DNA from: Anaeromusa acidaminophila DSM 3853
GTDB taxonomy: Bacteria; Bacillota; Negativicutes; Anaeromusales; Anaeromusaceae
Length of the DNA: 44,434 bases
Reading direction: 5' to 3'
NCBI RefSeq assembly: GCF_000374545.1
Contig: NZ_KB894594.1
Span: forward strand, 68,596-113,029
Shown: piece after piece, positions 799 through 40,696 of the stretch
How the letters are laid out: the number at the start of each line of letters is the position of its first letter
Position numbering within the stretch: position 1 is the first letter of the stretch
The notes under the pieces: generated by a model
The model's database searches: none
Told to the model about the DNA's origin: nothing
The model's input: only the letters and a program-made list of their open reading frames with translations
Program-made: the position numbers and the translations under genes

Positions 799-3210
799 TT
801 AAAAATCCATAACCACCTGAAACCGATTTGTTGATGCATCTTTGGTTTTTCTATTTTTCCATTTTGTTTCTTCAAGGGCTTGGTTAACTAAAAAACCGAA
901 CTTGCTATACGGAGCCATTTGAATCTTTCCAGCCGCCGTTGTCCATATTGACTCATCGCCTATTAGATACACCCTTTTTTGTGCTCGGGTGATGGCCGTA
1001 TACATCATGTTCTGGTTTATACGAGATTTTTCGCTAGCCGGCACAACGAAAACATAGTCGGCTTCAGAGCCTTGCGCCTTGTGGATACTTATTGCATAGG
1101 CCGGTTCAATCCAGCATGATATCTCTTCATACGTATATGGGGATATTTCATGGTCTGGATCATTCCAGCGCACTGTGATACCAGTACCCGTTTCCCCAAC
1201 AATAGTACCTCTCATACCATTAAACACATCTTCGGTGCGTCCTTCATGGCGAAAAAACATTATTTTACGGCGCCCGGTAGTATCCTCAGCATACTCGGCA
1301 TAATCGTTTTGTGTTGCAATAACCGGATCTCCTACCGCAAAGCTACCTGCTGACTCGTCAATTCGCTTGCCTTTTTCATTTAGTTTCGTCCGTAAAAATG
1401 CATTAAGCTGCATGGTTCCCATTTCTTCTTTTCGCTGATCTGAAATGACAAGGATATCCTCATGCTTTATTCCGTTTTCCAAAAGAGCAGCTATTTCCCG
1501 GTATAATGCTTCTTTGTCTCGCTCTATCAGTTGTACGGCTTCCGTAGGCCTAATTTCAAGCGAGTGCTCGTTTCGGACTTGAAGGGCCGCTTCCAACAGT
1601 TCCCTACCCTCTGTCCTAAAAACCGTCTTTAGCTCGGTTACAGGAAGAAGCGATGGGTCTATAACGCGTGCTGCCATCTGGTGGAAAAATCCACTTGGCC
1701 CAATAGCCGGCAGCTGACCGGGATCACCCATGATCACTAAATGAAGTTGCGGTTGCTGTTTAATCGAATGAAGCAACCGGCTAAATACCATGACCGAACA
1801 AAGGCTCATTTCGTCCACAACAATAATGTCTGTATGCTCAAACAGATTTTCCATGTCGCCTTGCCGAGGAAGAAAATCATTTACCCCTAAATCCTCGGTC
1901 ATATGGGTTATGTTCGCAAATCGATGGATGGTTTGAAAATCTTCCTTTCGCAGATTGGCTTTTCCTCCAGCTACGGCCGCCGCCATAGCCGATGGAGCGA
2001 TAACCTTAACCCTCTTACCAATGGCTTGACAATATGAAACCAACGCCTTTATGATATGCGTTTTGCCGGTTCCTGCTTGGCCAACTACTACACTGGTTTT
2101 ATACGCAATTGCATTTTTTAAGGCTTGCTCTTGCTCGCCGGACAGCGGAATATCCTTAAACAATCCCAAATCAATGGAGTATCCATTGTTCGAGTCACCT
2201 ATCCGGTTTGCAAACAACTCTGCCGCCGTACGTTCAGCAAAATAGGCTCCCGTCATATAAATTCCTGAAGCTGCAGCGTTGCCATAGTAATTGCTTTTTT
2301 CCGCGAAGTTTTCTCCTAACGTTTCTGCCACTTGCGAATAGTATCTTGCAGCTTCTTCGCCGCATTCTTTTTTCCCAGAAATAGTTACCTTCGCGCCACC
2401 TTGCTTCATTACGTCCCGGAAGGAGCTAATCAAGAGCCGATTTATAATGATGCTGGGATGGGTATCCTTTGATTTTTTTGCCAACTCCATCATCGCTTTA
2501 TCGCCTTTTGTTTGAACCGCTACATGCGGTGTGGGAATGAAGGTGTTTCCTCTTCTGGCGTTGCTGGCTACTATCTGAGCGACCACTGCCATTGCCTCGA
2601 TTTCTATCGGCAAATTCACGCCCAAATTTTTTGCCAATCGCTTTGCATCAGTTATTGAAAACTCTTCCGTTTCTGCAATGATGAAAGGATTGCTGGCAAT
2701 CAGATCGACAACACCTTCAAACCCCCGTTGCTTGGCTCTTTGGGAAAAGAAAGAAACCAACATCCAGGCGGTTTCTGGTGACTCGCGAAAGCCCGCTTTC
2801 CTAAATAGTTCGTGCACATCGCGGACATCTTGCGTGTATACGTCCGGCAGATCACAAACCGTCCCTTTTGTTCCAGTCAACTGTCCATCGCGCAATCGTT
2901 CTCCATCAACTGCCGTTTTCGAAAACATTTTTCGGATGGATGATTGACGAATAATTTCCCAATCTTGGATATAAAACACCGTGTTTTTCCCAAGTTTTGC
3001 TACTTTCCCTTGGGCGTGAATAACCATGCCCCGCCGCAAACTGTCTTTTTGATTCCGTTTTGCCAGTTTAAACGATATGCTGTCTTTTGCTTCTGCTTCC
3101 ATTATCCCCGAAGGGTCTTTCAGAACGGTAAGCTGGCCATCTGTCTTATATTTGGTTGTTGCCATCGAAAACGAATACACATTGTTAAGATATACGTAGA
3201 CCCAATCCAT
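799..3210 (-). CDS. recD: RecD-family helicase of the type IV CRISPR locus
   Basis: 803-aa SF1B helicase resembling RecD2/TraA helicases. The N-terminal ~200 residues contain a RecD2-like helix-hairpin-helix stretch (ASNPFIIAE). The motor has Walker A GQAGTGKT near residue 375, Walker B VVDEMS near 465, GDPGQLPAIG in motif III, the SF1 motif V segment SIHKAQGSE, and TAITRAQ in motif VI near 740. The ATG at 3210 is chosen because AAAGGAGA lies 10 nt upstream; the TTG at 3219 would leave no room for that site. The gene begins 20 nt after cas6 and is last in the operon before the array. Type IV-A systems carry a DinG (csf4) helicase here; a RecD relative is the mark of subtype IV-D as I know the classification. 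It probably acts with the crRNA-guided complex on DNA. No nuclease domain is visible. Confidence 0.93.
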   Translation of the reverse strand: MDWVYVYLNNVYSFSMATTKYKTDGQLTVLKDPSGIMEAEAKDSISFKLAKRNQKDSLRRGMVIHAQGKVAKLGKNTVFYIQDWEIIRQSSIRKMFSKTAVDGERLRDGQLTGTKGTVCDLPDVYTQDVRDVHELFRKAGFRESPETAWMLVSFFSQRAKQRGFEGVVDLIASNPFIIAETEEFSITDAKRLAKNLGVNLPIEIEAMAVVAQIVASNARRGNTFIPTPHVAVQTKGDKAMMELAKKSKDTHPSIIINRLLISSFRDVMKQGGAKVTISGKKECGEEAARYYSQVAETLGENFAEKSNYYGNAAASGIYMTGAYFAERTAAELFANRIGDSNNGYSIDLGLFKDIPLSGEQEQALKNAIAYKTSVVVGQAGTGKTHIIKALVSYCQAIGKRVKVIAPSAMAAAVAGGKANLRKEDFQTIHRFANITHMTEDLGVNDFLPRQGDMENLFEHTDIIVVDEMSLCSVMVFSRLLHSIKQQPQLHLVIMGDPGQLPAIGPSGFFHQMAARVIDPSLLPVTELKTVFRTEGRELLEAALQVRNEHSLEIRPTEAVQLIERDKEALYREIAALLENGIKHEDILVISDQRKEEMGTMQLNAFLRTKLNEKGKRIDESAGSFAVGDPVIATQNDYAEYAEDTTGRRKIMFFRHEGRTEDVFNGMRGTIVGETGTGITVRWNDPDHEISPYTYEEISCWIEPAYAISIHKAQGSEADYVFVVPASEKSRINQNMMYTAITRAQKRVYLIGDESIWTTAAGKIQMAPYSKFGFLVNQALEETKWKNRKTKDASTNRFQVVMDF

Positions 3211-3230
3211 TTTTTGCAATCTCCTTTCGT

Positions 3231-3899
3231 TTAAACCGGCACCACCAATCCAAACCCTGATCCAGTACGTTCTCCCAGGCCGCCATAGAGCGCAACTTCA
3301 ATAGCCTTGGGTTCACCTGTCAGCTCAAGTACCACGTCACCACGGGCGGGTACCGCGAATTTATAGGGGATACTGCAAGGAAACCCTTTTTGCACGATAC
3401 GAACACCCACCGCATTTGGTAGCAGCTCCATGTTTAAAAACGCATTGGTTCGGCGCACTAGATTTTGGGCCAATAACTTTTTCCAAAGTTCCTCGTCTTG
3501 ATCCAAAAATACCGGCTTCTTTTTACCGTCTTCGCCACGGTAGGAAAGAGCAATAGGAGACAGCGCTTTCACGGTCATTCGACCGCTAATGCGCTGAACT
3601 GGTTGAATCGGAAGAACCTTCTTTACTTCAAATAAATTATTTTCGATCATAATCCCTTGTCCGACCAGTGAGACAGCCCCCTCTTTTAACGCGAGAGCTA
3701 TGTCTTCTCGTACAGACGCAAAGGTAAACATGCCTTGCTGATAAGCCCAAGTATAGGGTTTAAATTTTTCCTTGGCATTATGCAGTTGCTTGGCCAGCGC
3801 TTCGTTCCCGGTATTTAATAACCGCCAAAAAAAGGTTACCGCTTGATCCTTTGAAGCCGGTTCTCCATATTGTTCTACCAAAATTGCAAGTCGGTTCAT
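3231..3899 (-). CDS. cas6: Cas6-type crRNA endoribonuclease
   Basis: 222 aa. The C-terminus has the glycine-rich loop of Cas6 RAMP proteins (YGGLGERTGSGFG, near residues 205-217), which helps grip the repeat RNA. Length fits the family (about 200-260 aa). Role by family: cleaves the CRISPR transcript within each repeat to make crRNAs for the Csf complex. The start codon overlaps the csf3 stop by 4 nt, so the two are translationally coupled. In type IV-A the equivalent gene is csf5; this one looks like a general Cas6. The catalytic residues cannot be assigned from sequence alone, but several histidine, tyrosine and lysine candidates lie in the N-terminal third. Confidence 0.85.
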   Translation of the reverse strand: MNRLAILVEQYGEPASKDQAVTFFWRLLNTGNEALAKQLHNAKEKFKPYTWAYQQGMFTFASVREDIALALKEGAVSLVGQGIMIENNLFEVKKVLPIQPVQRISGRMTVKALSPIALSYRGEDGKKKPVFLDQDEELWKKLLAQNLVRRTNAFLNMELLPNAVGVRIVQKGFPCSIPYKFAVPARGDVVLELTGEPKAIEVALYGGLGERTGSGFGLVVPV

Positions 3900-4744
3900 C
3901 TTTTTGACCGTCCTTTCTTCTTGGTACTACCTTGTGCCTTGCGCTCCTCTTTGGCAATTTCTCGATCCAAAAAGTCTTTTTGTTTTTGGCCCAAAACAGC
4001 GGAGGCCTTTTCCACTTCTTCTTTCCCCGGGAGTGCGGGAAAATTAAAAAAGGACAACGGGGAAATATAGCAATGGTCATAGAGCGCACGGTTCCAATAC
4101 GGCGGCTTATAGCCTACAAAATCAATCAGTTCCTCTTTAATCGGCTCGGTCCAACCGGCAACCGGAATCGGGCGGGCGGGATTTCCTTCTTTCAAGACGC
4201 TCCAATTGGGGCACTCCTTCTCTTTCACATCAACCTTACCTATTTCTCCAAAGCCAATCGACCGCTTGCCGCCAAGATGGCCCAGCTTCCAGATTAGTTT
4301 TGTGAGCTCTCTAAAGTGCTCCTTGTCGGTCACTTGTGCGTAAAAATCAAGATACGGAGTAACTAATTTCCAGTACAGTTCCCGCGCTGCTTGATGTTCG
4401 CCCATTTGATTACTTACATAGGACTTACCTAAGTCTTGTTTTGCAAAGGTTTGCACAAAATCAGCGTGCCGATATATCAGCGTTGGCTCAAGAAACGAAC
4501 CTTCTGCAGCAAAGCTGCTGGAAATTGCAAAAAATGAATCATTAACCAACGTAAATGGCAACTCTGGTTCCGCTAAGTTAGCCGGGTCCATTTCCGCTGG
4601 GGTTTTCACAAGCCCTTTAGACAGGGCCCACGCGTACCCATAAAGCCCATCGCCCTGAATCGGACGGATGGGCTTTACCGCTGGAAAAAGCAACGGCGAT
4701 ACGAGATGAAAACGTACCCGGACGTTATGAATCTGCTTGCTCAT
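3896..4744 (-). CDS. csf3: Csf3 (Cas5-group RAMP subunit)
   Basis: 282 aa. RAMP-fold protein: a beta-rich N-terminus (VRVRFHLVSPLLFPAV) and a glycine-rich loop GGKRSIGFGEIGKV near residues 165-180. In type IV effector complexes Csf3 is the Cas5-like subunit that caps the 5' handle of the crRNA. The ATG at 4744 is preferred over an upstream in-frame ATG because AAAGGAGG lies upstream and the chosen start overlaps the csf1 stop by only 20 nt. It sits between csf1 and cas6, as expected. The fold is clear; the Csf3 label rests on the neighbours, and Csm4-like proteins look similar. Confidence 0.8.
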   Translation of the reverse strand: MSKQIHNVRVRFHLVSPLLFPAVKPIRPIQGDGLYGYAWALSKGLVKTPAEMDPANLAEPELPFTLVNDSFFAISSSFAAEGSFLEPTLIYRHADFVQTFAKQDLGKSYVSNQMGEHQAARELYWKLVTPYLDFYAQVTDKEHFRELTKLIWKLGHLGGKRSIGFGEIGKVDVKEKECPNWSVLKEGNPARPIPVAGWTEPIKEELIDFVGYKPPYWNRALYDHCYISPLSFFNFPALPGKEEVEKASAVLGQKQKDFLDREIAKEERKAQGSTKKKGRSKR

Positions 4745-5456
4745 TAGAAACCTCAGAAACCTCCTTTGTGGCAACGTGCGCAGCCAAATGTGCCGCCAAG
4801 ACAATGGACGTATCCATTGCTTGTTTATAGGCTTGCATTAGTTCCCGAATGTAATAGTTTCGCTTTTGCCACTCGGTTTTCATATACACTGTGGTTGGTT
4901 TCAAATACGAATCAATTTGTTCGAGCATAGATTGAACCGATTGGATAAATTCTGCTCGGTCTACATCAACTACCCCGGAAAGTTCTGTAGAGGACCGAAA
5001 AAACCGCAAACCGGCGATGGTCATTTTTAGCCGTTTTTTTGAAAGATTTACACCGTCAATGGCTTTCCATTGTTGGTGTTTTTGTGTTAATGACGTATTA
5101 TCCCCCCGCAGCAGGATAACGCTGGGGACAGCGACCGCATCGGCGCTGGCGACAATCTTCTCGTAAAAATCAGCAAAGTTCATTTGTTCAATGCTTTCGG
5201 GCGTTGCAATGACCACCGATTGCTTGTCCCAATATTGCTGACGGTTATGCCCTGTTCTAAACCATTCGCAGGCCACACAGCAGCGGTCTTCATCGATCCG
5301 CCGGCAGATGTTTTCATCGGTCCATGTAGTTGACGACAATTCCTGGTGGCTTTTCGATGGCCCAAGGAGTGGGCCGCCGCATACACGGCAGGCCCCCGGC
5401 TCTACTTCTGGGCGATTTCCCAATCCTATATAAATAATCTGAGGTCCGCTATACAT
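4725..5456 (-). CDS. csf1: Csf1 (type IV large/Cas8-like subunit) with zinc finger
   Basis: 243 aa. The N-terminal third has two cysteine pairs, CRVC (near residue 20) and CVAC (near residue 58), matching the zinc-binding module typical of Csf1. The remainder is helical with no recognisable nuclease motif. Csf1 is the signature large-subunit candidate of type IV complexes. The ATG at 5456 follows AAGGAGGGG by about 9 nt and starts 14 nt after csf2 ends; an in-frame ATG at 5552 would overlap csf2 deeply and add a lysine-rich, poorly structured extension. Identification depends on size, zinc motif and position next to csf2. Confidence 0.82.
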   Translation of the reverse strand: MYSGPQIIYIGLGNRPEVEPGACRVCGGPLLGPSKSHQELSSTTWTDENICRRIDEDRCCVACEWFRTGHNRQQYWDKQSVVIATPESIEQMNFADFYEKIVASADAVAVPSVILLRGDNTSLTQKHQQWKAIDGVNLSKKRLKMTIAGLRFFRSSTELSGVVDVDRAEFIQSVQSMLEQIDSYLKPTTVYMKTEWQKRNYYIRELMQAYKQAMDTSIVLAAHLAAHVATKEVSEVSNEQADS

Positions 5457-5469
5457 TAGGCGCCCCTCC

Positions 5470-6498
5470 TTATTTTTCCGCTTCTTTGGCTGCTTTTTTT
5501 GCCGCTTTCGACACATACCCGAACAGCTCCGGCATGGTTTTAATGGCATCAATGATTTCTTCCTTATGTGCCGCTAGATACGCGTCATAGTTTGCAATTG
5601 CCGCAGACGCATCAAACTCTTTAGCATCGCCATCTTCTTCGATTTCATAAAGCTCAAAGGATACAAACCCATGACCGCGGCCGCTCATGCCGCCAACGAC
5701 TCCATTTTCGGAAAGCAAGCCATACATGGCCAAAAAGGCTAACCTGGCACCCTCATTGTCCGTGGTGATGCGCGAAGAGGTTCCAAGAATCGTACCCGCT
5801 GGCAGATACTCGGAGCCATAAATCATGGCTTCTTTCTCTACGCCAATATCGCTTTCTCCAGAAGCATCTTCAATCGCGCCACTTTCCGATCGCCGTGTAT
5901 AGCGAATTTTTTGCAAATGAGCATCTTTCATAAATTCCGCATAGCTTGGAGCCTCGTTTTCAATCTTTTCTGTGAGGGCCAACGGGAATACCGGATCAAA
6001 TAAGCTGGCGGTTTCGCGTAAGTACGGACGCAAAAAGCCGACCCGGGAACTACCTTCGAATTGATGTGCATGAAAAACCATGCCCAGGGCGCCCAGCATC
6101 GGAATTGTATCACGAAGCTTTTTGTATTTTTCTGGCGCCGCTGCTTTCGCGGTCATGCCAGCCGGGGTAACCCCGCCCGCGCGGAATGCCGTTTGAACAC
6201 GGCGTGCCAAAACTTCTTGTTTTGGAAACAGCTCCCCAACCGTAACGCCCAGTTGAGCAAACGTATGATCAAACAGAAGGCGACGGCCCAGGCCGCGTAC
6301 ACCGTTACCAGACACAACCGGAATGCGCAGCGTCAACGATTCGCCGTTATGTTGGCACACCACCGTTTCGGTGCGCCGTGGTTTAACATTAGGGTTTTGG
6401 CCTTCGTCAAGGATCTCCGAGTGCACAATGCTCGAAAGAGCGGTCACCGTTCCGACTAGCTGAGTCGTTTTGTTTTCCACTACCCCGTTTTCTGTCAT
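5470..6498 (-). CDS. csf2: Csf2 (Cas7-group backbone subunit)
   Basis: 342 aa. Cas7-family protein: VSGNGVRGLGRR near residue 65 and GGMSGRGHGFVSFELY near 275 are the glycine-rich turns of the Cas7/RAMP backbone. Length fits Csf2. Several copies should polymerise along the crRNA to form the type IV filament. First gene of the cas operon; the ATG at 6498 has GGAGG 8 nt upstream, whereas the longer form from 6528 has no such site. Bases 5891-5913 match a spacer of array 1 with one mismatch (see findings). The C-terminus is rich in Lys and Ala, probably a flexible tail. Confidence 0.9.
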   Translation of the reverse strand: MTENGVVENKTTQLVGTVTALSSIVHSEILDEGQNPNVKPRRTETVVCQHNGESLTLRIPVVSGNGVRGLGRRLLFDHTFAQLGVTVGELFPKQEVLARRVQTAFRAGGVTPAGMTAKAAAPEKYKKLRDTIPMLGALGMVFHAHQFEGSSRVGFLRPYLRETASLFDPVFPLALTEKIENEAPSYAEFMKDAHLQKIRYTRRSESGAIEDASGESDIGVEKEAMIYGSEYLPAGTILGTSSRITTDNEGARLAFLAMYGLLSENGVVGGMSGRGHGFVSFELYEIEEDGDAKEFDASAAIANYDAYLAAHKEEIIDAIKTMPELFGYVSKAAKKAAKEAEK

Positions 6499-6535
6499 CC
6501 TAATCCCCTCCATAATTTGGTTTTCCACTTTTTAT

Positions 6536-15841: not shown

Positions 15842-17701
15842 CTACAGCAAACTTTCTAATTCGCTTTCCTTAACAATTGAAACCCCTAGCTCTTGGGCCT
15901 TGATTAACTTTGAACCACTGTCTTCACCAGCCAGTAAGTAGGACGTTTTCTTGGAAACAGAACCCGATACTTTATGCCCTGCCTTTTTGATCTGCTCTTC
16001 ATAGTAACTGCGCGGGCGGGTGAGGGTCCCGGTAATGACAAAAGTTAGAGCGTTTTCGTTTGAAATGATCTTTTCTGCGGTTGCCGGTTCAATCTTCTCA
16101 CGCATCTTAATCAGCATCTGCTTATTATCGAGTAGAGCTTGGACCGCAACCGGCCCAACTCCAGGAATGGCTGCAATACGCTTACAACCCTGTTCGATAT
16201 CTTCCATTATCGCTTCAAATGTGCCTAAATTGCCTGCTACGTCGTTTGAAATGCTTCTGCCGATACCAACTATCCCGCCCGCATATAAAAACCGCTTCAG
16301 CTCGGTTCTGCGAGCGTTTTGAATAGCAGTAAATAGTTTGGCAGCGGACTTTTCTGCAAAGCCTGGCAGCTGCTTTAATTCAGTTTGGGTCAAATCGAAA
16401 ATATCGGTGATATGCTCTACCCCAGCTCCAATCATCTTTGCGGCCGTTTCTTCCGACAAGCCTTCAATGTCTAGTGCTTCTCGCTTAGCCATATGGCATA
16501 AGGCTTGCAGTAGCTTCCCTCGGCAATCCGTATTGATGCAAAAATGCTGGTCGTTAATTTGCTGCAGGCGGCTGCAGCATTCCGGGCAAACCGAAGGCGC
16601 CTCAAATTTTTTAAGCGGATCGTATTGGCGTGATTCAATGATGTCAGGGATTACATCATTGGAGCGGATAACAAACACTTCACAGCCTTGAGACAGCTGC
16701 AAACTATCCATTACACCCAGATTGTGCAAAGATACACGTTCAATGCTAACGCCGCCGATATCCACTGGCTCCAAAATACCTACGGGAGTAATTTTCTCCC
16801 GCCCGACTTGCCAGATAACCTCTTTCAACGTGGTCCACTGGCCTTCAGAAGGAAACTTATAGGCGACCATGTTTTTCGTATGGTGTCCTGTCATGCCAAA
16901 TTCTTCGGCAGCGTTTTCCTTGTTGCTCTTAATAACTAGTCCGTCAATCATATAGGGAAGCGCGGCGCGGTCAAAATCAAGAACGTATTGAACCGCTTCT
17001 TCAAGGTTCTCATGGCTAAAGGAAAAGAAAGGCGTTACCTGCCAGCCAAGTGCTTTTAGTTCTTCCAACTGGGTCGTTTCTGGTCTGGTATCCCCAGCTA
17101 GGTTATAGGCAAAATACGAAACCCCTTCCACTCGGCCAGCATCTTTATTACGAAGCATTCCGGCGCACGCATTACGAGGATTCTTTGGAACTGCCTCCCC
17201 TTCGGCTTCCCGTTTTTTTTGCAGCTCATAAAAGGCGTCCCACCTCATTAGCCCTTCAATGCGGATCGGATACGTATCATGACAACGGCCTAAAGAGGAA
17301 ATCTTGTTAGCCGTGTTATTGATAATCTCTCCAATGTGCCCGGTTCCTCTTGTAACCGCCGTCTTATCTGGATAAAACATAACGGTCAGGCCATCGAACT
17401 TAGGCTCAATTACCCCGGGAGCCAATCGCGCCAGCTCAGCACGCAGCGCCTCTTTGGTATTGATTTTTGCCAGGGATAGAACCGGATACCAATGATTAAA
17501 CTTTTCAAACCGCCCAGCCGTTTCCCCCGGTACCTGCTCATACTCTTCTAGCCCTGCATTACGCAGCCACATATCTTTTAGAAGGTCGTATAATTCATCA
17601 GCAATTACGGGTGCGTCATTGTCATAGTAAGCAGTATTACAGGAATCCAAATAGGTTTTTTGTTCTTCCGTGGTAAGTTGTTTAAATGCTGCACTGTTCA
17701 T
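15842..17701 (-). CDS. ligA: NAD-dependent DNA ligase
   Basis: 619 aa. Seals nicks in duplex DNA using NAD. Seen in order: short N-terminal NAD-binding segment, adenylation motif KFDG near residue 100 (catalytic Lys), RNACAGMLRNKD near 175, OB fold, zinc finger of four cysteines (CPEC and CINTDC, about 375-398), helix-hairpin-helix repeats, and a C-terminal BRCT domain (about 545-619). About 50 residues shorter than typical chromosomal LigA (about 670), mostly at the N-terminus. All catalytic parts look intact. A plasmid copy suggests self-sufficiency in replication or repair. Confidence 0.96.
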   Translation of the reverse strand: MNSAAFKQLTTEEQKTYLDSCNTAYYDNDAPVIADELYDLLKDMWLRNAGLEEYEQVPGETAGRFEKFNHWYPVLSLAKINTKEALRAELARLAPGVIEPKFDGLTVMFYPDKTAVTRGTGHIGEIINNTANKISSLGRCHDTYPIRIEGLMRWDAFYELQKKREAEGEAVPKNPRNACAGMLRNKDAGRVEGVSYFAYNLAGDTRPETTQLEELKALGWQVTPFFSFSHENLEEAVQYVLDFDRAALPYMIDGLVIKSNKENAAEEFGMTGHHTKNMVAYKFPSEGQWTTLKEVIWQVGREKITPVGILEPVDIGGVSIERVSLHNLGVMDSLQLSQGCEVFVIRSNDVIPDIIESRQYDPLKKFEAPSVCPECCSRLQQINDQHFCINTDCRGKLLQALCHMAKREALDIEGLSEETAAKMIGAGVEHITDIFDLTQTELKQLPGFAEKSAAKLFTAIQNARRTELKRFLYAGGIVGIGRSISNDVAGNLGTFEAIMEDIEQGCKRIAAIPGVGPVAVQALLDNKQMLIKMREKIEPATAEKIISNENALTFVITGTLTRPRSYYEEQIKKAGHKVSGSVSKKTSYLLAGEDSGSKLIKAQELGVSIVKESELESLL

Positions 17702-17725: not shown

Positions 17726-19096
17726 TTAGTGAATAGCCATTTCAATTTCAGACCAAGACAGTTTCGCAACGCCAGTATCGCTGAGGATTAGTTCTTTGGC
17801 CGCTCGCGTAACCGCCGTATATAGCCACCTAGCATTATCCTTAAAGCAATCCTGTTTAACAAACACCTTAGCCCACTGGCTGCCTTGGGACTTATGCGCT
17901 GTTACCGCATAGCCATACGTGCATATGGACACTTCTTTGTCTAACTCATTCTTTTTAGTCTTGGTATTAAGCGTAACCCAATCACTGGGGAACAACGAAA
18001 GGTCAGCCACTTGGGCATGATAGACGCTTGATTTTTCGACTTCCGGCAGAAGAAGGATCTTGTGGTCTTTCTCTTTGTCCACCAACAAATAGGCTTTTTC
18101 CATCCACTCTCCCGCCCCGCTAACCAAAGCTGACGCGATCCCTGATTGAAGCGGCAAGTTAATTTCCTCTAACACTTCAAGTTCCTCTAAAAGAAGTCGA
18201 TCCCCATTCACGCATTTTTGGCCATTGCTGATGGAAAGAAGCACATCTCCTTTTTGAGGCGGTTCTACCTCTCCAAATTTTGCTCTTCTTGCCCGAATGT
18301 TAAGAGCCTTACGGGTACGATTCGATCCCACAATACAAACGGCATCTTCTTCGTTTTTAATGGCTTCTAAGAACGCTGTGTCGGCGGGGAACGTCCGCAT
18401 GATCGTTACATCACCGCAGGATTCTTGGGGAATAAAGACTCTTCTTTCTTTGCGCAATGCGGTTGCAAACATGAGAATTTGGCTTTCCGCAGCTTGTCGC
18501 CGTACTTCATCTAATGCTTCGTCAGGCTGCTCTAAAATATGAGGATCTTTCCCCACCGGCTCTAATTGATAGGAATCACCAATATAGAGCAGTTTGGCCT
18601 GACTTCCGCAAACCTGAGTTTTTAAATCACTATGAAGGTCTTCGTTAACTAAACTTCCTTCATCGCAAATCACCACATCATCACTGCTAAAAGACACTCT
18701 TGGAATCCAAGCTCCTTTTTCATCGGGATGACCATAGAGCAAACTGTGCAAGGTTCTAAAGTTAGCCCGGATTTCCTCGGGCATCTTTTCTTTTAATACT
18801 TTTACCGCCTGGTTGGTAGGTGCCACTACATAGACAGTTTTCCCTTTGCTAAGAGCAAAATTGACTATGTTTTCGACAATGGTTGTTTTGCCCGTTCCCG
18901 CATAACCGGCCAAGGTAAACTGAAAATGCAGCGCCGATTGCAAAAACATTGCAATTGCCTTTAACGCTCTTTTTTGTCCTTCGGTATAGCGCAGATACGT
19001 GCTGCGTTGGTATAAAATCCGGTCATTGGTTCGTTCTAGTTTTTTTATATCCAGCTCTGCAGCTGCATTGTCTGGACCGTTTTCAAATAGCTTCAT
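17726..19096 (-). CDS. Dda/RecD-like SF1B helicase
   Basis: 456 aa. Walker A GYAGTGKTT near residue 65, motif Ia VAPTNQAVKVL, Walker B CDEGSLV near 145, GDSYQLEPVG motif III, TAHKSQGSQW motif V near 400, and YTAVTRA motif VI near 430. Compact size and order match phage-T4 Dda-type 5'-3' helicases, which load on replication forks and strip proteins. Distinct from the CRISPR RecD at 799, which is almost twice as long. A TATAAT (about 40 nt upstream) and GGAGGGG precede the ATG. Followed by ligA with a 24-nt gap: likely one transcript. Confidence 0.9.
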   Translation of the reverse strand: MKLFENGPDNAAAELDIKKLERTNDRILYQRSTYLRYTEGQKRALKAIAMFLQSALHFQFTLAGYAGTGKTTIVENIVNFALSKGKTVYVVAPTNQAVKVLKEKMPEEIRANFRTLHSLLYGHPDEKGAWIPRVSFSSDDVVICDEGSLVNEDLHSDLKTQVCGSQAKLLYIGDSYQLEPVGKDPHILEQPDEALDEVRRQAAESQILMFATALRKERRVFIPQESCGDVTIMRTFPADTAFLEAIKNEEDAVCIVGSNRTRKALNIRARRAKFGEVEPPQKGDVLLSISNGQKCVNGDRLLLEELEVLEEINLPLQSGIASALVSGAGEWMEKAYLLVDKEKDHKILLLPEVEKSSVYHAQVADLSLFPSDWVTLNTKTKKNELDKEVSICTYGYAVTAHKSQGSQWAKVFVKQDCFKDNARWLYTAVTRAAKELILSDTGVAKLSWSEIEMAIH

Positions 19097-19237: not shown

Positions 19238-19272
19238 TCAGGTTATGCTTTTCAGTTGGTTCATCTGCGATA

Positions 19273-20236
19273 GTTTTCATCCCTTATAGGTATTCTTTAT
19301 ACCCGACTTCTAGATTTTTGTCTGCCGATTTTCATCATGGTTTTAATCCCTTATAGGTAGACTACAACCCACTCTTCACATGCAATATTGGCCATTGAAC
19401 GTTCCTGCTTCAAACCCTTATAGGTGATCTTCATACATGCCATTCACGCGGCGTTTTGATTCAACTCGCACATTTCAACCCCTCATAGGTGGTCTTTAAA
19501 CAACTTCTGGTATTGGCGAGGCAACTTATGTGTACATATTTCCACCCCTCATAGGTAGTTTTCATACTTGGAATTTGATGGCAGGTAGTTTTCCGCCGCA
19601 ACACGGTTTCAATCCCTTATAGGTAGTCTTTAAACAACATCGTAGATGTCGCTAAAAGATGCGTATTGGCCGTTTCAAACCCTTATAGGTAGTCTTTAAA
19701 CGAAGCGTCTGGCGGTCCACAGCGTCCAGGTATTTAGAACCGTTTCAAACCCTTATAGGTAGTCTTTAAACAGAAGTACCGCGATTGCTGAACAAAGCGA
19801 AGCAAATGCGTTTCAAACCCTTATAGGTAGTCTTTAAACGTTCCACCTGTAGCAGCCGTACCGCTGCCACCGCCAGTTTCAAACCCTTATAGGTAGTCTT
19901 TAAACGCTGGATCATAATAACTTTGGCCCTCAATTTGCTGAGTTTCAAACCCTTATAGGTAGTCTTTAAACGGACTGAGTGGAAAACAGGCCGCCCGGGT
20001 CGACCGGGGTTTCAAACCCTTATAGGTAGTCTTTAAACTTTTTCTGGCAGGGGGCTAGCCGTGATTTGGTTGCTGTTTCAAACCCTTATAGGTAGTCTTT
20101 AAACTGAAGGCTTGTATTTTATTGTTTTTTCGGTTATTCGAGTTTCAAACCCTTATAGGTAGTCTTTAAACCTGTAGAGCCGCTGGCATCGGTTCCATTC
20201 GATTGAGTTTCAAACCCTTATAGGTAGTCTTTAAAC
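19273..20236 (-). CRISPR. CRISPR array 2 (15 repeats, decayed trailer end)
   Basis: Thirty-nt repeats start at 19273, 19340, 19407, 19472, 19538, 19606, 19672, 19742, 19810, 19876, 19942, 20009, 20075, 20142 and 20207; spacers are 35-40 nt. The nine from 19672 are identical and differ from array 1 at two positions (ending GTCTTTAAAC instead of GTCTACAAAC). The first five are heavily mutated and the sixth has one change, all at the leader-distal end, as expected for the oldest units. Leader at the right end, terminator at the left. Several spacers read as Gly/Ser/Thr-rich coding sequence, reminiscent of phage structural proteins. No cas gene is adjacent, so it must use the Csf proteins at 3.2-6.5 kb. 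Confidence 0.99.
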
Positions 20237-20378
20237 CCATTTTATCCGCTTTTTTACTGCCTATCAAAACAGCCCTAATCAATTATACCATTATCCAGAA
20301 ACGATAAAGCCATATTTTCTCTCGTGTCATTTGTCGTTGATCCCCAGGAGCAATTACGCTACTCCAAATCGACGACAT
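20237..20378 (-). promoter_or_regulatory. CRISPR leader 2
   Basis: Near-copy of leader 1: the same TATAAT (20282-20287) at the same distance from the first repeat and the same dyad (arms 20332-20341 and 20368-20377). Divergence is concentrated in the dyad loop and between dyad and -10 box. It starts right at the stop codon of the XseA-like gene. Confidence 0.8.
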
Positions 20379-21266
20379 TTATTTGCCAACAATTTTTAAA
20401 ATTAAGATCACAAAGAGAATTACTGCAAGAATAAATACCCATCGTTTGTACTGATTTACCTGTTTTTGTCGTTCTCTTTCTGAAGCCATTTTATTCAGCA
20501 ACTCTGCAGCCGCGGTTGGCGTGGAGCATCGCACGTCTGCTACTTCTTCACACAACAGATAATCGCCTTCATGGCCGATTCCGGTGATGACTGGGATTTT
20601 CGACTTTGCAATCGCCAACAGCAAAGTTGGGTGGTTATATTCGAATAAATCATTGGGACTTCCACCACCGCGGACAATAACAATACAATCATAGCCTCCC
20701 CGGACATTGATTTCACTGATTTGCAATGCAATGTCTTCACTCACGTTGGCACCTTGCATTTTGGTTGAAAATAAATCAAATTGTCCAGTCTTTAACGTTG
20801 AACAAAAATCCCCATATCCATGAATGCTTTCGTTTGATATCAATGCGATTGAATGACAGACGGGCGGGAGGCTTTTTTTATTTCGATGGATTAGCTCATA
20901 GTGTTCCTTTCTCCATTTTTTGAGTTGGTCTGGCATATTACCATTGCCTACATACTGTATTGACTCCGCGATCAACAAAATAGTCCCATTTTTAGTTAGA
21001 GAGATTTGCCCACTTATCTGTACTTCATCATTAACATTGATATCATCAGAGAATACCCAAACATTATCATAAGCTAAAACCGTTAGGTTAGCTGATTCTT
21101 TGCCGTGCGCTTCGGCTAACGTTATAAACAAACTCGCTTCCCATGGAGAAACTCGCACCACCGTTCCCTTCACGGAAAACTTTTTCCCAGCGAACGCCTG
21201 TCTAATTGGTTCCCTTAAAGACCGAAAAAAAGAAAAGATAGATTGCCCACTATTTGAATCATACAT
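20379..21266 (-). CDS. Short XseA-like protein with C-terminal membrane anchor
   Basis: 295 aa. Residues 1-105 form an OB-fold like that of exonuclease VII large subunit; residues 120-265 match the XseA catalytic domain, including VRGGGSPNDLFEYN, GIGHEGDYLL and VADVRCSTPTAAAELL. Normal XseA is about 400-450 aa with a long coiled coil that binds XseB. Here that region is missing and replaced by a basic linker and a hydrophobic helix (about 275-292, VFILAVILFVILILKIV). The stop is clean, so this looks like a designed tail-anchored form, not decay. No xseB is visible. Its start overlaps the 129-aa gene by 8 nt, and its stop abuts CRISPR leader 2. Confidence 0.85.
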   Translation of the reverse strand: MYDSNSGQSIFSFFRSLREPIRQAFAGKKFSVKGTVVRVSPWEASLFITLAEAHGKESANLTVLAYDNVWVFSDDINVNDEVQISGQISLTKNGTILLIAESIQYVGNGNMPDQLKKWRKEHYELIHRNKKSLPPVCHSIALISNESIHGYGDFCSTLKTGQFDLFSTKMQGANVSEDIALQISEINVRGGYDCIVIVRGGGSPNDLFEYNHPTLLLAIAKSKIPVITGIGHEGDYLLCEEVADVRCSTPTAAAELLNKMASERERQKQVNQYKRWVFILAVILFVILILKIVGK

Positions 21267-21648
21267 TCAAAGCTGACTCCTTCAACTTTTTACTGGCCTC
21301 TTTAAAGGCTATTACAAATGGAATAAATTGAGGATGAAATTCAAATAGAATTTGATCATTAAATCTATCAAATTCAATATACGTTATCATTGCAAATAAA
21401 TGCTCTACTTTTAATTTCTCCTCCCACGCCCGAACTATTATCTGCAAAATTTTATCTTCCCTTTGATTTAGGTTTAATTCTGACCATTTATCCGTGATTT
21501 TTAAAAAATCGCTTACTCCCATATAAAAGAGACCGCTACGATCAATATTTGAATCAATTGCTGCAGAAATCACACATCTTGCAATCTCATCCTCTACTTG
21601 ATTTTTTGTTTTTATTGTAACTTCCGAACCGTTAAGTCTTAGCGCCAT
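21259..21648 (-). CDS. Hypothetical protein, 129 aa, coupled to XseA-like gene
   Basis: Helical protein starting MALRLNGSEVTIKTKNQVE. The segment FEFHPQFIPFVIAFKEASK near the C-terminus faintly recalls the strand-helix of Rep_3 initiator winged helices, but this is weak. Overlaps the next gene by 8 nt, so the two products are probably made in step. ATG at 21648 has AGGGG upstream; the ORF is open further to 21681. Function unknown. Confidence 0.65.
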   Translation of the reverse strand: MALRLNGSEVTIKTKNQVEDEIARCVISAAIDSNIDRSGLFYMGVSDFLKITDKWSELNLNQREDKILQIIVRAWEEKLKVEHLFAMITYIEFDRFNDQILFEFHPQFIPFVIAFKEASKKLKESALNV

Positions 21649-21670
21649 CAACTTTGCACCCCTATCTATC

Positions 21671-21838
21671 TTACCGCACATACTGCCTTAGTTCGTTGTT
21701 AAATTGCTCATTCGCATCAACAACAAACTCGCGAACTGGTATTTCCCCTGCATCAGTCTTAAAAAGGCTTCCTTTCCGAAAAAAGAAAGGTAGGCAGGTC
21801 CAAATAGCTTCCGCCAGCACTTTCAGCTGGTCGGCCAT
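21671..21838 (-). CDS. Small ORF, 55 aa
   Basis: Starts MADQLKVLAEAIWTCLPFFF and ends ELRQYVR; a hydrophobic N-terminal half and charged C-terminal half. It follows a stop codon directly (TGAATG) with GGAG only 3 nt away. A competing frame with a much better ribosome site (AAGGAGG 6 nt before ATG at 21887, 42 aa, stop at 21759) overlaps it. One of the two is probably real; the 55-aa frame is the more protein-like. Confidence 0.45.
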   Translation of the reverse strand: MADQLKVLAEAIWTCLPFFFRKGSLFKTDAGEIPVREFVVDANEQFNNELRQYVR

Positions 21839-23116: not shown

Positions 23117-23542
23117 TCAAAATGGAATATCTTCTTCGGGGATACTTGGCCCGAAGCCGAATCCGTCTTGCTGATTAGAGTTTTGACTGTTGTTGGCAAT
23201 ACTGCCTTCGCCGGAAGCTCCCGTGGCGCGGTTACTATCTAGAAATTCAATGTTTTGTGCAATGACTTCAGCAACTCTGCGTTTTTGACCGTCTTGCCCT
23301 TCATAAGCGCGAATTTGCAGACGCCCTTCAACTAAAATCCGTCGGCCCTTTGAAAGATTATTACCAATGATCTCCGCTAATTTTTCCCACGCAACGATTG
23401 GAATAAAGTCAGTAGAATCTTGTTGGCCTTGCCCTGTCCTACGATTTACTGCTAATGAAAACGTCGTAACGGCTTTCCCGTTTGCTGTATAACGGACTTC
23501 TGGATCTTGTGCTAAGCGCCCCACTAATATTACCTTGTTCAT
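23117..23542 (-). CDS. ssb: Single-stranded DNA-binding protein
   Basis: 141 aa. N-terminal OB fold (MNKVILVGRLAQDPEVRYT, SLAVNR, FIPIVAWEKLAE, residues 1-105), a Ser/Asn/Gln/Gly-rich linker, and the acidic tip EEDIPF that docks partner enzymes. Normal length for a small SSB. Coats single-stranded DNA during replication. Plasmid copies are often used to support transfer or replication. Preceded by the 72-aa coiled-coil gene with a 2-nt gap. Confidence 0.97.
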   Translation of the reverse strand: MNKVILVGRLAQDPEVRYTANGKAVTTFSLAVNRRTGQGQQDSTDFIPIVAWEKLAEIIGNNLSKGRRILVEGRLQIRAYEGQDGQKRRVAEVIAQNIEFLDSNRATGASGEGSIANNSQNSNQQDGFGFGPSIPEEDIPF

Positions 23543-26770: not shown

Positions 26771-27364
26771 TTATTCCCCCTGCAGAATCTTTTCCGTCGA
26801 TAAAAAGCCTTGCGCTAAAGCAAGTCGTTCCAGAGCTGCCATTACATCTTTGCATTTTCTTTTAATGGCCACAGTCCTTACTAATATAGGCGTCTGTACT
26901 TTTTTCACTGGTTCCACATACCGCCCATACAAATCGACTCGATACGCGTCCGGTTTTGCCAACGCTTGTTTATATCGAGGACCATCACACCAGAACTGCA
27001 TCGCCTTCCGAGCTACATCACGAGAGTACCCTCTAGCTTGTGCCCAATCTCTTACCTCATTTGCAATTCCAATTTTTAATGGGACTTTGGATAACGGCTT
27101 ATGGGGAAAGGTAAAAGGAAACTCTTCTTGGAGCTCTTCGATGAGACGCTTTGCAGCTTTGGCTACTAGATCACACCCAATTAAAATTTCACCATTCCAC
27201 TCTTTCCGAGTTAAATTTACCGAAGAATGCCACTTTGTTTCATTGCCACAAGAAACGCACTGAATTTTATAACCCAAGACAATTCCTTGCTTATCCTGCC
27301 GTACTAATAGCTGCCGCTTTGAATCATGGCATTTATGGCAGTTGTCATAGTTTAAAAAGCTCAT
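26771..27364 (-). CDS. Zinc-finger plus ProQ/FinO-domain protein
   Basis: 197 aa. N-terminus: a four-cysteine zinc ribbon (C9, C12, C36, C39). Residues about 95-155 match the ProQ/FinO RNA-chaperone fold: PLKIGIANEVRDWAQARGYS, then ARKAMQFWCDGPRYKQALA and AYRVDLYGRYVEPV. This family binds structured RNAs; FinO controls antisense RNA on F-like plasmids. C-terminal ~40 residues are basic and helical. The zinc ribbon in front is not a feature of the well-studied members. GGAGG before the ATG. In one transcript with the HD protein. Confidence 0.82.
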   Translation of the reverse strand: MSFLNYDNCHKCHDSKRQLLVRQDKQGIVLGYKIQCVSCGNETKWHSSVNLTRKEWNGEILIGCDLVAKAAKRLIEELQEEFPFTFPHKPLSKVPLKIGIANEVRDWAQARGYSRDVARKAMQFWCDGPRYKQALAKPDAYRVDLYGRYVEPVKKVQTPILVRTVAIKRKCKDVMAALERLALAQGFLSTEKILQGE

Positions 27365-33768: not shown

Positions 33769-35157
33769 TTATTTTGTTTTTTTGTTTGTTTTTGGAACAA
33801 TGCCCACGGTAAGCAGGTAGGTTTTAAACATGTTTTCGTGAGCCGGGTGGTTTTTCTCAGGAGCAAAGAATTGTCCCCATCCGTCTGGACTTGTTCGCTG
33901 AAGATACTCTTTGCATTGATATCGTAGTGCTAGTATGGTTTCCGCATCGATACTATTTAGAAAATTGTTTACTCGCTCCATATCTTCCTTCGAGACTTCA
34001 TTGGGGAGTAATGCCAGTTGTTCTTCGTGTTGAGCTTGAATGGTAAGCTCAATTGTTTTTTTGGTTTCCTCTTGCTGCGCTTCTTGTTCCTTCTTTTCCC
34101 CAAACCAATCTTCCTGTACTGCAGCAACAATAAATCCTGACTTTGATTCGATTGGCTTAGCGCTTTTGTCTATGGCTTTTAAAGCATACTCCAGGTTGTT
34201 TCTGATGTGTTCTACAGGGTATTGTTTTACCCACTTCCGGCTGATGCTCTTATAAACGCCATGAGCTTTTAATAGCGTAACAATATCCTCCACCGGATCT
34301 CCCGTTGAAAGCCCCGCTTCGGCAGCTGCTTTACGTTTTTTTCGTGGCGATGGCTGAAAGGGGAGAATATCATCGTCTTCATCGTTGGTAATATCCTTGT
34401 TTAGGAAGATTGTAAAATAAATACGATGAATGGCTCTTCCAAGCTTTTCTTCACGATATTCGAATGCCAATTCGGTGCTCATTTTCATTTCTTTTTGAGC
34501 TTGATGAATCACACGTTTTCGGAAATTATCATATACTTTATACTCGTGCGGCTGAATTCCAAACATTTCTCTCAATTCAGCAACCGTATAATCACATGTA
34601 TTTTTCTTAATATTTCCCGTTTGAGAGTCAATCCAAAAGTTTTTGCGCATCAACTCATACATTCGTACAGAATACGTACTGCGAAGACTCCATATAGACC
34701 GGAACTGATACTTCGTAAACTTGGGAAGGTTTAAAAAATAGGTCTTAAGTTGATCATGCAATTGCAAACTCACGGTCCGATCTTTGGAGTTCACCTGCGC
34801 TAGCGTAAACCAAGGCACGCGTGGCCGGTCTTTAATTTCCAGGTTTTTGTTTGGAAGATAGACGAAGCGCTCTTGCATTTGAAAGATGGTTTTACGCAAA
34901 TACTCGTATTTCCGATTACTTGTGCTCTCACCCATAATTCGCGTAGCATCACTAAAAGAGAACGTATAGGTTTTAAGAACATCGTCATCTGGATTGATAA
35001 GAGAAATAACATATGATAACAGCTTAATTTCATAGAGTTGCAGCGAATACTGCGCTTCCACCAGTTCAGGACTCTTTACTATGTAATTGTCTAGATTATT
35101 ATCGGAGTACGGAATTAGCTCAACTCCTATATCACTAACAATCGACGATCCATTCAC
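33769..35157 (-). CDS. repB: Rep_3-family plasmid replication initiator
   Basis: 462 aa. N-terminal half has the Rep_3 tandem winged-helix fold: YSLQLYEIKLLSYVISLI near 45, KTIFQMQERFVYLP, then FRSIWSLRSTYSVRMYELMR near 135 with the second wing YTVAELREMFGI near 190. It should bind the iterons at 35.27-36.27 kb and open the origin. The C-terminal 180 residues (charged, low complexity, then a helical end) are unusual for the family, which is often about 230-350 aa. GTG start with GGAGG 7 nt upstream. Confidence 0.93.
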   Translation of the reverse strand: MNGSSIVSDIGVELIPYSDNNLDNYIVKSPELVEAQYSLQLYEIKLLSYVISLINPDDDVLKTYTFSFSDATRIMGESTSNRKYEYLRKTIFQMQERFVYLPNKNLEIKDRPRVPWFTLAQVNSKDRTVSLQLHDQLKTYFLNLPKFTKYQFRSIWSLRSTYSVRMYELMRKNFWIDSQTGNIKKNTCDYTVAELREMFGIQPHEYKVYDNFRKRVIHQAQKEMKMSTELAFEYREEKLGRAIHRIYFTIFLNKDITNDEDDDILPFQPSPRKKRKAAAEAGLSTGDPVEDIVTLLKAHGVYKSISRKWVKQYPVEHIRNNLEYALKAIDKSAKPIESKSGFIVAAVQEDWFGEKKEQEAQQEETKKTIELTIQAQHEEQLALLPNEVSKEDMERVNNFLNSIDAETILALRYQCKEYLQRTSPDGWGQFFAPEKNHPAHENMFKTYLLTVGIVPKTNKKTK

Positions 35158-36465: not shown

Positions 36466-37083
36466 ATGTCCATTGTTAGCACGAATCGATACACTACACT
36501 CTTTTACGGACTACATGCCTACCTTTGCTATCTCCAAATTATGGGTCATCTTAGAACCTATCAGTTTGCCTACTTAGCTATTGCTGAGCTTTGCTTTTTT
36601 ATCTGGCTCCAGTCATTACTCGAATTGAAAGATTGGAATACGTTTCACCCTTTGATGGAAAAAGAGTTCTCTAAACGCTTGCGTTCGTTAGGGTTGGAAC
36701 AAGTTGGTTTTTATCATGGCTCTACTGTTTATGCCGGTTCCGGCGGAATCATCTTTGTTAAGCCGTATTATGCCCCCGGAGTTAGAGATGAAAACTTCGG
36801 TTTAATTATGGGCCCTCACAACGCAGCCTGTGAACTAAGCACGCATCAAGAAATGATAGCGCTTAAGAAAGAAGTTACGACGATAATTGGAGATCAAGTG
36901 CCTATATATTGCATAGCACTATTTTCAAATTCCACTTTTTTGACGTGCCCGTTTTACAACGGAAAATATTATAGTTTAACACTCCGAGAAAATATGCATT
37001 TATTTATAAAAACCTATATTTCAAGTCAAATTTTTCCGAATCAAATCACCATGGCATGTAAAAAACTGGAGGAAAGTGCATGA
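36466..37083 (+). CDS. Membrane protein, weak NERD-like C-terminal part
   Basis: 205 aa. Hydrophobic stretches near residues 15-50 form one or two membrane helices; the cytoplasmic part contains GGIIFVKPYYAPGV and VPIYCIALFSNST, the second resembling the last strand of NERD-type nuclease-like domains, but the usual active-site motif is not seen. GGGAG before the ATG. First gene of the envelope operon; its stop overlaps the omp85 start by 4 nt. Confidence 0.65.
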   Translation: MSIVSTNRYTTLFYGLHAYLCYLQIMGHLRTYQFAYLAIAELCFFIWLQSLLELKDWNTFHPLMEKEFSKRLRSLGLEQVGFYHGSTVYAGSGGIIFVKPYYAPGVRDENFGLIMGPHNAACELSTHQEMIALKKEVTTIIGDQVPIYCIALFSNSTFLTCPFYNGKYYSLTLRENMHLFIKTYISSQIFPNQITMACKKLEESA

Positions 37084-38759
37084 GACTTTGCAAAAGAAAC
37101 TCCCATAAAGCTGCATATCGCAAAGGGTTATCGCTTCTTCTAGCTGGATTAGTTCCGCTTATGGGACTAACCTGGAGCACGGCTGCCGATGCGGAAACAG
37201 CACCAACGGTATCAAATGTCTATATCGTTGGAACAGAGACCATTGAAGCTAAAACACTGATGCCATATGTGACAGGTACTCAAACGGGCAAACCTTTGGA
37301 TACTAAGCTGCTACAGGCGGATCTGGATCGGTTGATTGCAAGTGGCATGGTAGACGAAGTAAAAGCCAAAATTGTTCCCATGGGGGAAGGGTGCACCGTT
37401 TTTTTGCATGTAACGGAAGCTCATGAGATAAAAAAAGTATCGGTTGAAGGCGCCAAGGTTTCGGATAAAACAACCTCGCTAAAGCAGGGGGATACGTTAA
37501 CGCATGACAAGCTGAAAACGGAAACAGAGCGTATCAACAAAGAGCTGAAGGATAAGGGAAGCTTAGCTGAAGTTACCCAAGTTAAATTTGATGGCGATGG
37601 AAATGTTAAATTCGTCGTTGAAGAAAAAATCATGTCAAAAGTCGAATTTCAAGGCTTAAAAAAGACGAAAGAGTGGTTAGCGAAAAAATTAGTCAGCTTT
37701 TTAAAACCAGGGAAAACGCTATCCAAAAAAGATATCGATAAAGCACTGAACAAGTTAACAGATAGCGGCTATTTCGACAAGGTTCATGCGGAACTGGTCC
37801 CAGATGCAAAAAAAGGGGAATTTATACTGCGTTTTGTAGTCACTGAGCCATTAAGTGGAGAATGGCGCTTTGGTGGAGGAACCAGCACAAGGTCCGGCAC
37901 TTTTTTGACGGGCTCAGTGAAAGAAAACAATCTTCATGGAGAAGGCAAAGAAGTGAGTGCTGCTATTCGGTATAACCCGGATGACTCTGAATATAGCCTT
38001 AGATACAGAGATAACTTTTATCATCAGAGTAATGATTCTTTGGCCTTGGGCCTTTGGAAAACTCACTTTAAGGGGACTGTTGATGGTAATAGTTATACAG
38101 AGGGAACGCAGGGAGGGTCAATTTATTATGAAAAAGCGTTGCATGATGATCCACGGTTTAAATTTACTACCGGCGTAAGAATGGAAACGCAAACGGTTGA
38201 AGAGAATACGACTAGTAGGAGAGATGTATTAAGAGTTTTGAGCTTGGGCTATATAGCTGACACCACTGACGATACCAAAAACCCAACCAAGGGATCTATT
38301 GTTGATTTAAAACTGGACAACGGGTTGAAAATCTTAGGTGGGACCGTCTCGTTCGAAAAGTTCAAATCCGTTATTAGGCATTATATGCCGCTAGACGAAA
38401 AAGGGAAAACGTCCCTGGCATTTCGTTTTACCACGCAATTAGCCGGCGGAGATCTACCTACCGCCGAACAGTTTTCACTTGGTGGTGAAAAAGCGGTAAG
38501 AGGTGTGGAAGAATATAATCTTCGAGGAACTGGAGGTGCTGTGTTAAATGTGGAATATCGAAGAAATTTGTCCGATGCAGTACAAGCCGTTTTATTTGGC
38601 GATGCAGGTCGTTCTTGGGGCTTGTCTTCTTCGAAAGCCGCTGCAGGGGTTGGCGTTGGTGTAAGAATTAAAACCGGTATGGGCATTATGCGATTTGATG
38701 TCGCAAAGTCTGGAAGTAGACCGACACAATTTATTTTTGGGCTAGGAAATAGCTTTTAA
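37080..38759 (+). CDS. Omp85/BamA-family outer-membrane protein
   Basis: 559 aa. Signal peptide ending about ADAETAP (residue 38). Three POTRA domains (about 42-115, 116-190, 191-265), then a 16-strand barrel (270-559). The signature loop is GGEKAVRGVEEYN near 470 (normally VRGF/VRGY), and the last strand ends in Phe. This is shorter than host BamA, so a specialised TamA/BamA-like or two-partner secretion-type transporter is likely. It proves a diderm host. Plasmid copies of this family are rare in my knowledge. Confidence 0.92.
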   Translation: MRLCKRNSHKAAYRKGLSLLLAGLVPLMGLTWSTAADAETAPTVSNVYIVGTETIEAKTLMPYVTGTQTGKPLDTKLLQADLDRLIASGMVDEVKAKIVPMGEGCTVFLHVTEAHEIKKVSVEGAKVSDKTTSLKQGDTLTHDKLKTETERINKELKDKGSLAEVTQVKFDGDGNVKFVVEEKIMSKVEFQGLKKTKEWLAKKLVSFLKPGKTLSKKDIDKALNKLTDSGYFDKVHAELVPDAKKGEFILRFVVTEPLSGEWRFGGGTSTRSGTFLTGSVKENNLHGEGKEVSAAIRYNPDDSEYSLRYRDNFYHQSNDSLALGLWKTHFKGTVDGNSYTEGTQGGSIYYEKALHDDPRFKFTTGVRMETQTVEENTTSRRDVLRVLSLGYIADTTDDTKNPTKGSIVDLKLDNGLKILGGTVSFEKFKSVIRHYMPLDEKGKTSLAFRFTTQLAGGDLPTAEQFSLGGEKAVRGVEEYNLRGTGGAVLNVEYRRNLSDAVQAVLFGDAGRSWGLSSSKAAAGVGVGVRIKTGMGIMRFDVAKSGSRPTQFIFGLGNSF

Positions 38760-38773
38760 AAGGGGCGTGAACA

Positions 38774-39472: not shown

Positions 39473-39498
39473 TTTTTGGTTAAAGAAAGGAGAGTTTC

Positions 39499-40677: not shown

Positions 40678-40696
40678 CTAACAGGGAGGAATAATC

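Follow-up and report, generated by a model that had tools for sequence, protein, structure and literature searches.

A short exonuclease VII large subunit on an Anaeromusa acidaminophila plasmid with a predicted C-terminal membrane helix in place of the XseB-binding coil

We describe here a 295-aa exonuclease VII (ExoVII) large subunit, referred to as mini-XseA, which very probably consists of the XseA catalytic core without its coil, followed by a membrane helix. The gene lies in the window, that is, the whole stretch of 44,434 nucleotides analysed here; in a genome of 3.5 Mb, this is the terminal 44.4 kb of a contig measuring 113 kb. Tails of this kind are not restricted to the window, being found in one relative from the same bacterial class and on haloarchaeal plasmids, where tail-anchored XseA is common.

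Catalytic core and C-terminal helix

The gene, the aligned catalytic positions and the helix are located as follows:

20379..21266, minus strand: tail-anchored mini-XseA, 295 aa from an ATG start; N-terminal part, ExoVII large-subunit catalytic domain and C-terminal transmembrane helix
20808..20810, minus strand: D153, corresponding to E. coli D155 by alignment
20670..20672, minus strand: R199 of the RGGGS motif, corresponding to E. coli R205 by alignment
20562..20573, minus strand: H232-E-G-D235, corresponding to E. coli H238-E-T-D241 by alignment
20385..20441, minus strand: C-terminal transmembrane helix by hydropathy, residues 276-294, with K-R-W before it and a one-residue tail after it

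The reading frame is intact, and the protein matches Pfam Exonuc_VII_L with E=1.2e-41 and 143.7 bits against a cut-off of 35.9. The match joins residues 128-273 to positions 5-152 of the 315 in the profile, the second half of the profile, which represents the coil, being absent; with the match ending there, mini-XseA lacks the XseB-binding coiled coil. Against the NCBIfam model xseA (TIGR00237) it scores 170.2 bits over positions 8-264 of 389, just below the equivalog cut-off of 180. In the alignment to E. coli XseA (PDB 8txr, entitled as the H238A mutant), D155, R205, H238 and D241, which we take to be the catalytic set of that enzyme, correspond to D153, R199, H232 and D235, and all four positions are kept. 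The first-pass annotation of this DNA had proposed a retained XseA core with a membrane helix replacing the XseB-binding coil, and both parts are borne out, the former by the Pfam domain and the four aligned positions and the latter by the half-profile match and the hydrophobic C-terminus.

An AlphaFold2 model built from three sequences has a mean pLDDT of 57.5, with better scores in the core and values below 50 for residues 27-123, and it places a single helix over residues 250-294. Its best match in the PDB is 8txr (Z 20.3 over 179 residues, rmsd 5.6), followed by unrelated rows from Z 9.8 downwards; all fold matches with Z <10 were set aside as common arrangements. The N-terminal part is probably an OB fold: Pfam OB models match it weakly (E 0.025-0.034), the corresponding part of the relative described below matches PF13742 at E 0.0014, below the cut-off, and the model has strands here, but at pLDDT <50.

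As for the C-terminus, the last 20 residues reach a 17-residue Kyte-Doolittle mean of 3.41 at their maximum. Among the 106 ORFs of at least 120 aa on the 113-kb contig, all judged by one hydropathy rule, mini-XseA is the only one with a tail-anchor-like build, i.e. a hydrophobic stretch at the end and none elsewhere. The distance from RGGGS to the end is 97 residues, compared with 177-271 in the 60 full-length XseA forms surveyed. The positive residues before the helix would fit membrane insertion with the N-terminus in the cytoplasm.

A relative of similar build in the same class

Among 380 genomes of the host's class, the closest match to mini-XseA is found in one genome, G076, with 115 bits and 44% identity over the core, and the next match has 86.5 bits. 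The G076 protein, with 298 aa, also ends in a membrane helix and is the only other case of such a build in the 380 genomes; since a relative of like build carries the helix too, the helix is no one-off. A profile trained on these two rows naturally returns them first, with 555 and 569 bits; the next genome reaches 119 bits. A search at E 1e-25 of a sample of 398 genomes from the phylum gives 61 matches besides the window's own, all with frames of 381-472 aa. The two bacterial members are 35% identical overall, and the G076 protein keeps three of the four catalytic positions, with Asn at the position of D241.

The G076 gene lies on a 597-kb contig, where the adjoining genes are unrelated to replication and the upstream ORF encodes a different, small membrane protein. 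No other common gene is found between the two loci in the 52 kb compared. The G076 protein matches no PADLOC model, and neither mini-XseA nor its upstream ORF matches any model in PADLOC-DB 2.0.0. The start of an Avs2 anti-phage NTPase gene (L040:15262-19569) is located some 4.5 kb downstream of the tail-anchored gene in G076, which is one case only.

Tail-bearing XseA on haloarchaeal plasmids

In a relaxed survey of all fetched XseA, a C-terminal TM helix is identified in 10 of 90 distinct frames, namely the window, G076 and eight haloarchaeal plasmid proteins. The haloarchaeal rows of the survey are plasmid copies, and eight of nine carry the tail (L048, L083, L112, L113, L114, L115, L117 and L118), the exception being L116, whose frame is unannotated in its record. 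In the plasmid collection, 40 listed records (H209-H248) match the Halobacterium XseA at about 75% identity or more, the tail being checked in four of them. In the haloarchaeal tail-bearing proteins, more residues follow the core than in the bacterial pair, and a short coil is kept. Of the seven small ORFs tested behind the haloarchaeal xseA genes, six score above the cut-off for XseB and the seventh scores below it. The first-pass annotation had called for homologues with the same helix and made its reading depend on their not being absent from mobile elements; the G076 relative answers the former, and the tails on haloarchaeal plasmids answer the latter. In two haloarchaeal plasmids the xseAB genes lie near Orc1/Cdc6 initiator genes. 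One haloarchaeal plasmid has a type I-B cassette at a distance of 1.5 kb from xseAB, which is suggestive only.

The tree groups the two bacterial proteins together (support 83) and joins them to XseA of Bacteroidota type (98), and the haloarchaeal group is placed elsewhere. A constraint uniting all tail-bearing rows is rejected (p-AU 0.0016). Because the tree rejects one origin for the bacterial and haloarchaeal groups, ExoVII has probably gained a tail anchor on two or more occasions, with the long branches as a caveat. The bacterial pair has SH-aLRT values of 90, 92 and 83 in three trees, and a common origin of the window's protein and that of G076 is likely from these trees. That mini-XseA is the chromosomal xseA of its host, truncated recently, is not favoured, as the tree places it elsewhere; joining mini-XseA with the host XseA group is not rejected in the AU test (p 0.23), and the long branches make its placement unsure.

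Further scans were made for tails in other collections. With C-terminal fragments, no alignment extends into the helix among the best 60 of 119 plasmid rows and in all 58 phage rows, a test which misses the haloarchaeal tails known there and is too weak to speak for an absence of tails. Viral-contig scans show no relative of mini-XseA, a result of little weight given their narrow patterns, and the two XseA of Bacteroidota type that the genome-contig scan yields are full length and tail-less. We found no description of a membrane-tailed XseA in the open literature searched, which lacks most subscription papers and is weak evidence in this respect.

XseB and the upstream ORF

The host genome has one xseB, which adjoins the chromosomal full-length xseA, and none alongside mini-XseA. 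The same holds for both bacterial hosts, the window's and G076, with one XseB gene each, away from the mini gene. According to PMC5684230, XseA consists of an OB fold, a catalytic domain, an XseB-binding coil and a short C-terminal domain, and the E. coli protein loses its function in vivo when its binding site for XseB is disrupted. Since E. coli XseA needs XseB binding in vivo, activity of mini-XseA without XseB is no given, and the bacterial tail-anchored form must be one of the following: active without XseB, dependent on the host XseB in another way, or inactive.

Upstream of the mini-XseA gene lies one small ORF, overlapping it by 8 bases:

21259..21681, minus strand: upstream ORF, an orphan, 140 aa from the first ATG and 129 aa from an inner ATG at 21648

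The first-pass annotation coupled mini-XseA to a partner of 129 aa; the overlapping ORF does exist and has this length from the inner ATG, but it measures 140 aa from the first. Searches of the remaining 379 genomes of the class, the plasmid collection and the viral contigs show no relative of it. The Pfam model for Rep3 WH1 matches it at E 0.01, which does not reach the cut-off and is a weak lead only, and the structure model is uninformative with a mean pLDDT of 45.1. Two PDB sequence matches of this ORF (E 0.7 and 1.2) were dismissed as chance.

Plasmid setting and the neighbouring CRISPR array

The contig is taken as a plasmid because the window contains a Rep3 initiator, a ParA-type partition gene and iteron-like repeats. 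The features which bear on the setting are listed below:

33769-35157: Rep3 initiator, with iteron-like repeats at 35.3-36.3 kb
23117-23542: ssb, within 6 kb of mini-XseA
17726-19096: second, short RecD-like helicase, between the arrays and next to array 2
15842-17701: NAD-dependent DNA ligase, between the arrays and next to array 2
799..6528, minus strand: type IV-D-like cassette recD, cas6, csf3, csf1, csf2, with array 1 at 9-636 and its leader
19273..20236, minus strand: CRISPR array 2, with degenerate far-end repeats (19267-19600)
20207..20377, minus strand: last repeat and leader of array 2, abutting the mini-XseA stop codon, a neighbour by position only

The plasmid also encodes a ProQ/FinO-family RNA-binding protein (26771-27364) and, at 36466-41500, a BamA-like outer-membrane protein and a PilT-family ATPase; farther out on the contig, a T2SSE-type ATPase is encoded among pilus-like genes.

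In both arrays the last repeat and the leader make up a block of 171 bp (607-777 and 20207-20377), and the two blocks are 84% identical. From the end of this block to the stop codon there is 1 base for mini-XseA and 21 bases for recD, both genes being on the minus strand, in agreement with the earlier remark that mini-XseA borders on leader 2 in a manner comparable to recD at leader 1. By the leader identity and the degenerate repeats, the arrays seem to be copies, either one of the other or both of a shared source, and array 2 gives the impression of a duplicated block that landed next to the mini-XseA gene. The position of mini-XseA beside an array looks accidental. When 17 spacers were compared with the contig, one of array 1 (437-474) agreed with csf2 of this same plasmid at 22 of 23 bases (5891-5913, E 1e-5 for that spacer), its other end being a piece of repeat; this spacer is perhaps self-derived and regulatory.

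The first-pass annotation had also raised a link to the CRISPR system, to be checked by co-occurrence with csf genes, and this finds no support. Type IV Cas7 is detected at E 1e-10 in three of the 380 class genomes (the window's, G217 and G271), and only the window's has a mini-XseA member; conversely, one of the two bacterial members' genomes has type IV Cas7. The G076 genome is without type IV Cas7, and a scan of 20 kb at the mini gene shows no repeats of CRISPR type. The second clear type IV-D-like cassette of the class lies on a 163.7-kb contig of G217 (L102-L110), which has matches to all five cassette genes at 24-33% identity, and a PilT-like gene too, and shows no mini-XseA match at E 1e-6. 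An overlap of one genome among two and three carriers in 380 is nominally unlikely by chance, and we give it no weight, the window having been chosen for this overlap. In plasmids, tblastn gives no match to type IV Cas7, and no adaptation genes are recognised among the window proteins scanned.

Proposed role and alternatives

We propose that mini-XseA is a membrane-tethered, XseB-independent ssDNA nuclease at the inner membrane, a statement which, taken as a whole, we hold to have an even chance of being right. The fold family, the residues, the missing coil, the lack of a second XseB and the recurring hydrophobic tail are seen in the data; from these we infer that the protein enters the membrane, how it is oriented there, that it cuts DNA independently of XseB, and what it acts on. 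The helix would insert post-translationally with the enzyme facing the cytoplasm, would hold it about 25 residues off the inner membrane, and would thus let it trim or destroy ssDNA there, whether entering, displaced or being processed, without XseB. In E. coli, ssDNA is broken down by ExoVII from either end, and ssDNA oligos and cassettes introduced into the cell are attacked at their ends (PMC3434165). That mini-XseA has nuclease activity at all is rather likely. The proposal agrees with the Exonuc_VII_L domain, the four positions, the fold match to 8txr, the lack of a second XseB, the recurrence of the tail and, as a single case, the Avs2 gene near the G076 copy; against it stand the Asn in G076, the low pLDDT of residues 27-123, and a bacterial group of two members only with no common neighbour. 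The haloarchaeal forms are no proof of independence from XseB, because xseB is kept there.

A role in plasmid housekeeping, in which mini-XseA would serve replication, repair or segregation at the membrane with no part in defence, is somewhat unlikely, though it draws on much of the setting: ssb, the RecD-like helicase and the NAD ligase lie within 6 kb, the plasmid has a Rep3 initiator and the upstream ORF its weak Rep3 WH1 resemblance, and Orc1/Cdc6 genes are near xseAB in two haloarchaeal plasmids. This setting is not repeated on the 597-kb contig of G076, where the gene sits beside non-replication genes and shares no neighbour with the window. The missing aspartate in G076 and the very long tree branches could mean that these proteins are degenerate or non-catalytic remnants, truncated XseA with a hydrophobic end by accident. 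We consider this improbable, as the window's protein keeps all four positions in an intact frame and as such a tail, present in a single one of the 106 plasmid ORFs, recurs in a relative of 35% identity and separately in haloarchaea.

Free XseA kills E. coli, and together with the overlapping two-gene layout this would suit a toxin-like or abortive pair, with the upstream small ORF restraining the membrane-tethered nuclease; with that ORF an orphan and a different gene upstream in G076, such a pair is very unlikely. The probability that mini-XseA is the missing nuclease or a spacer-processing enzyme of the type IV-D system is slighter still, at a few chances in a hundred at most in our judgement. 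It would have in its favour the same plasmid, the place at leader 2 resembling that of recD at leader 1, the haloarchaeal xseAB close to a type I-B cassette in one plasmid, and two statements from the literature: PMC11127173 lists no known interference nuclease for type IV-D, and in the type I-E system of E. coli, prespacers can be trimmed by ExoVII when RecJ is absent (PMC9699676), which is suggestive only. However, the G076 relative has neither type IV genes nor a nearby array, the type IV-D-like contig of G217 is without mini-XseA, adaptation genes are not recognised among the window proteins scanned, and array 2 looks like a copied block beside the gene.

Comparison with known systems

The usual view of ExoVII is that of a soluble repair enzyme made of XseA and XseB. 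A broader idea, which we put forward as a rather doubtful one, is that bacteria and haloarchaea independently added a tail anchor to ExoVII, largely on plasmids, giving a membrane ssDNA nuclease that would police or process crossing DNA, with XseB shed in the bacterial version. If true, the presence of membrane-tethered ExoVII in both bacteria and archaea would suggest that the enzyme has a task at the membrane, such as in ssDNA entry, plasmid transfer or phage DNA, and the bacterial tethered form would mean ExoVII activity without XseB.

With type IV-D CRISPR-Cas, mini-XseA has in common the plasmid and the border with one array, and there is no sign of membership. Compared with E. coli XseA (8txr), it has the fold of the catalytic domain, the four aligned residues and probably the OB fold, whereas the coil and the C-terminal domain are missing, a membrane helix stands instead, and the NCBIfam score is under the cut-off. 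The XseA proteins of Acinetobacter and Lactococcus plasmids and of Gordonia phages are likewise ExoVII large subunits on mobile elements, but they are full length and tail-less, with a small-subunit gene close by. The haloarchaeal plasmid XseA, for example that of pNG600 in Haloarcula marismortui, also combine an ExoVII catalytic domain with one C-terminal TM helix and are plasmid-borne as well; unlike mini-XseA, they keep a shortened coil, usually have xseB directly behind, and take a separate place in the tree.
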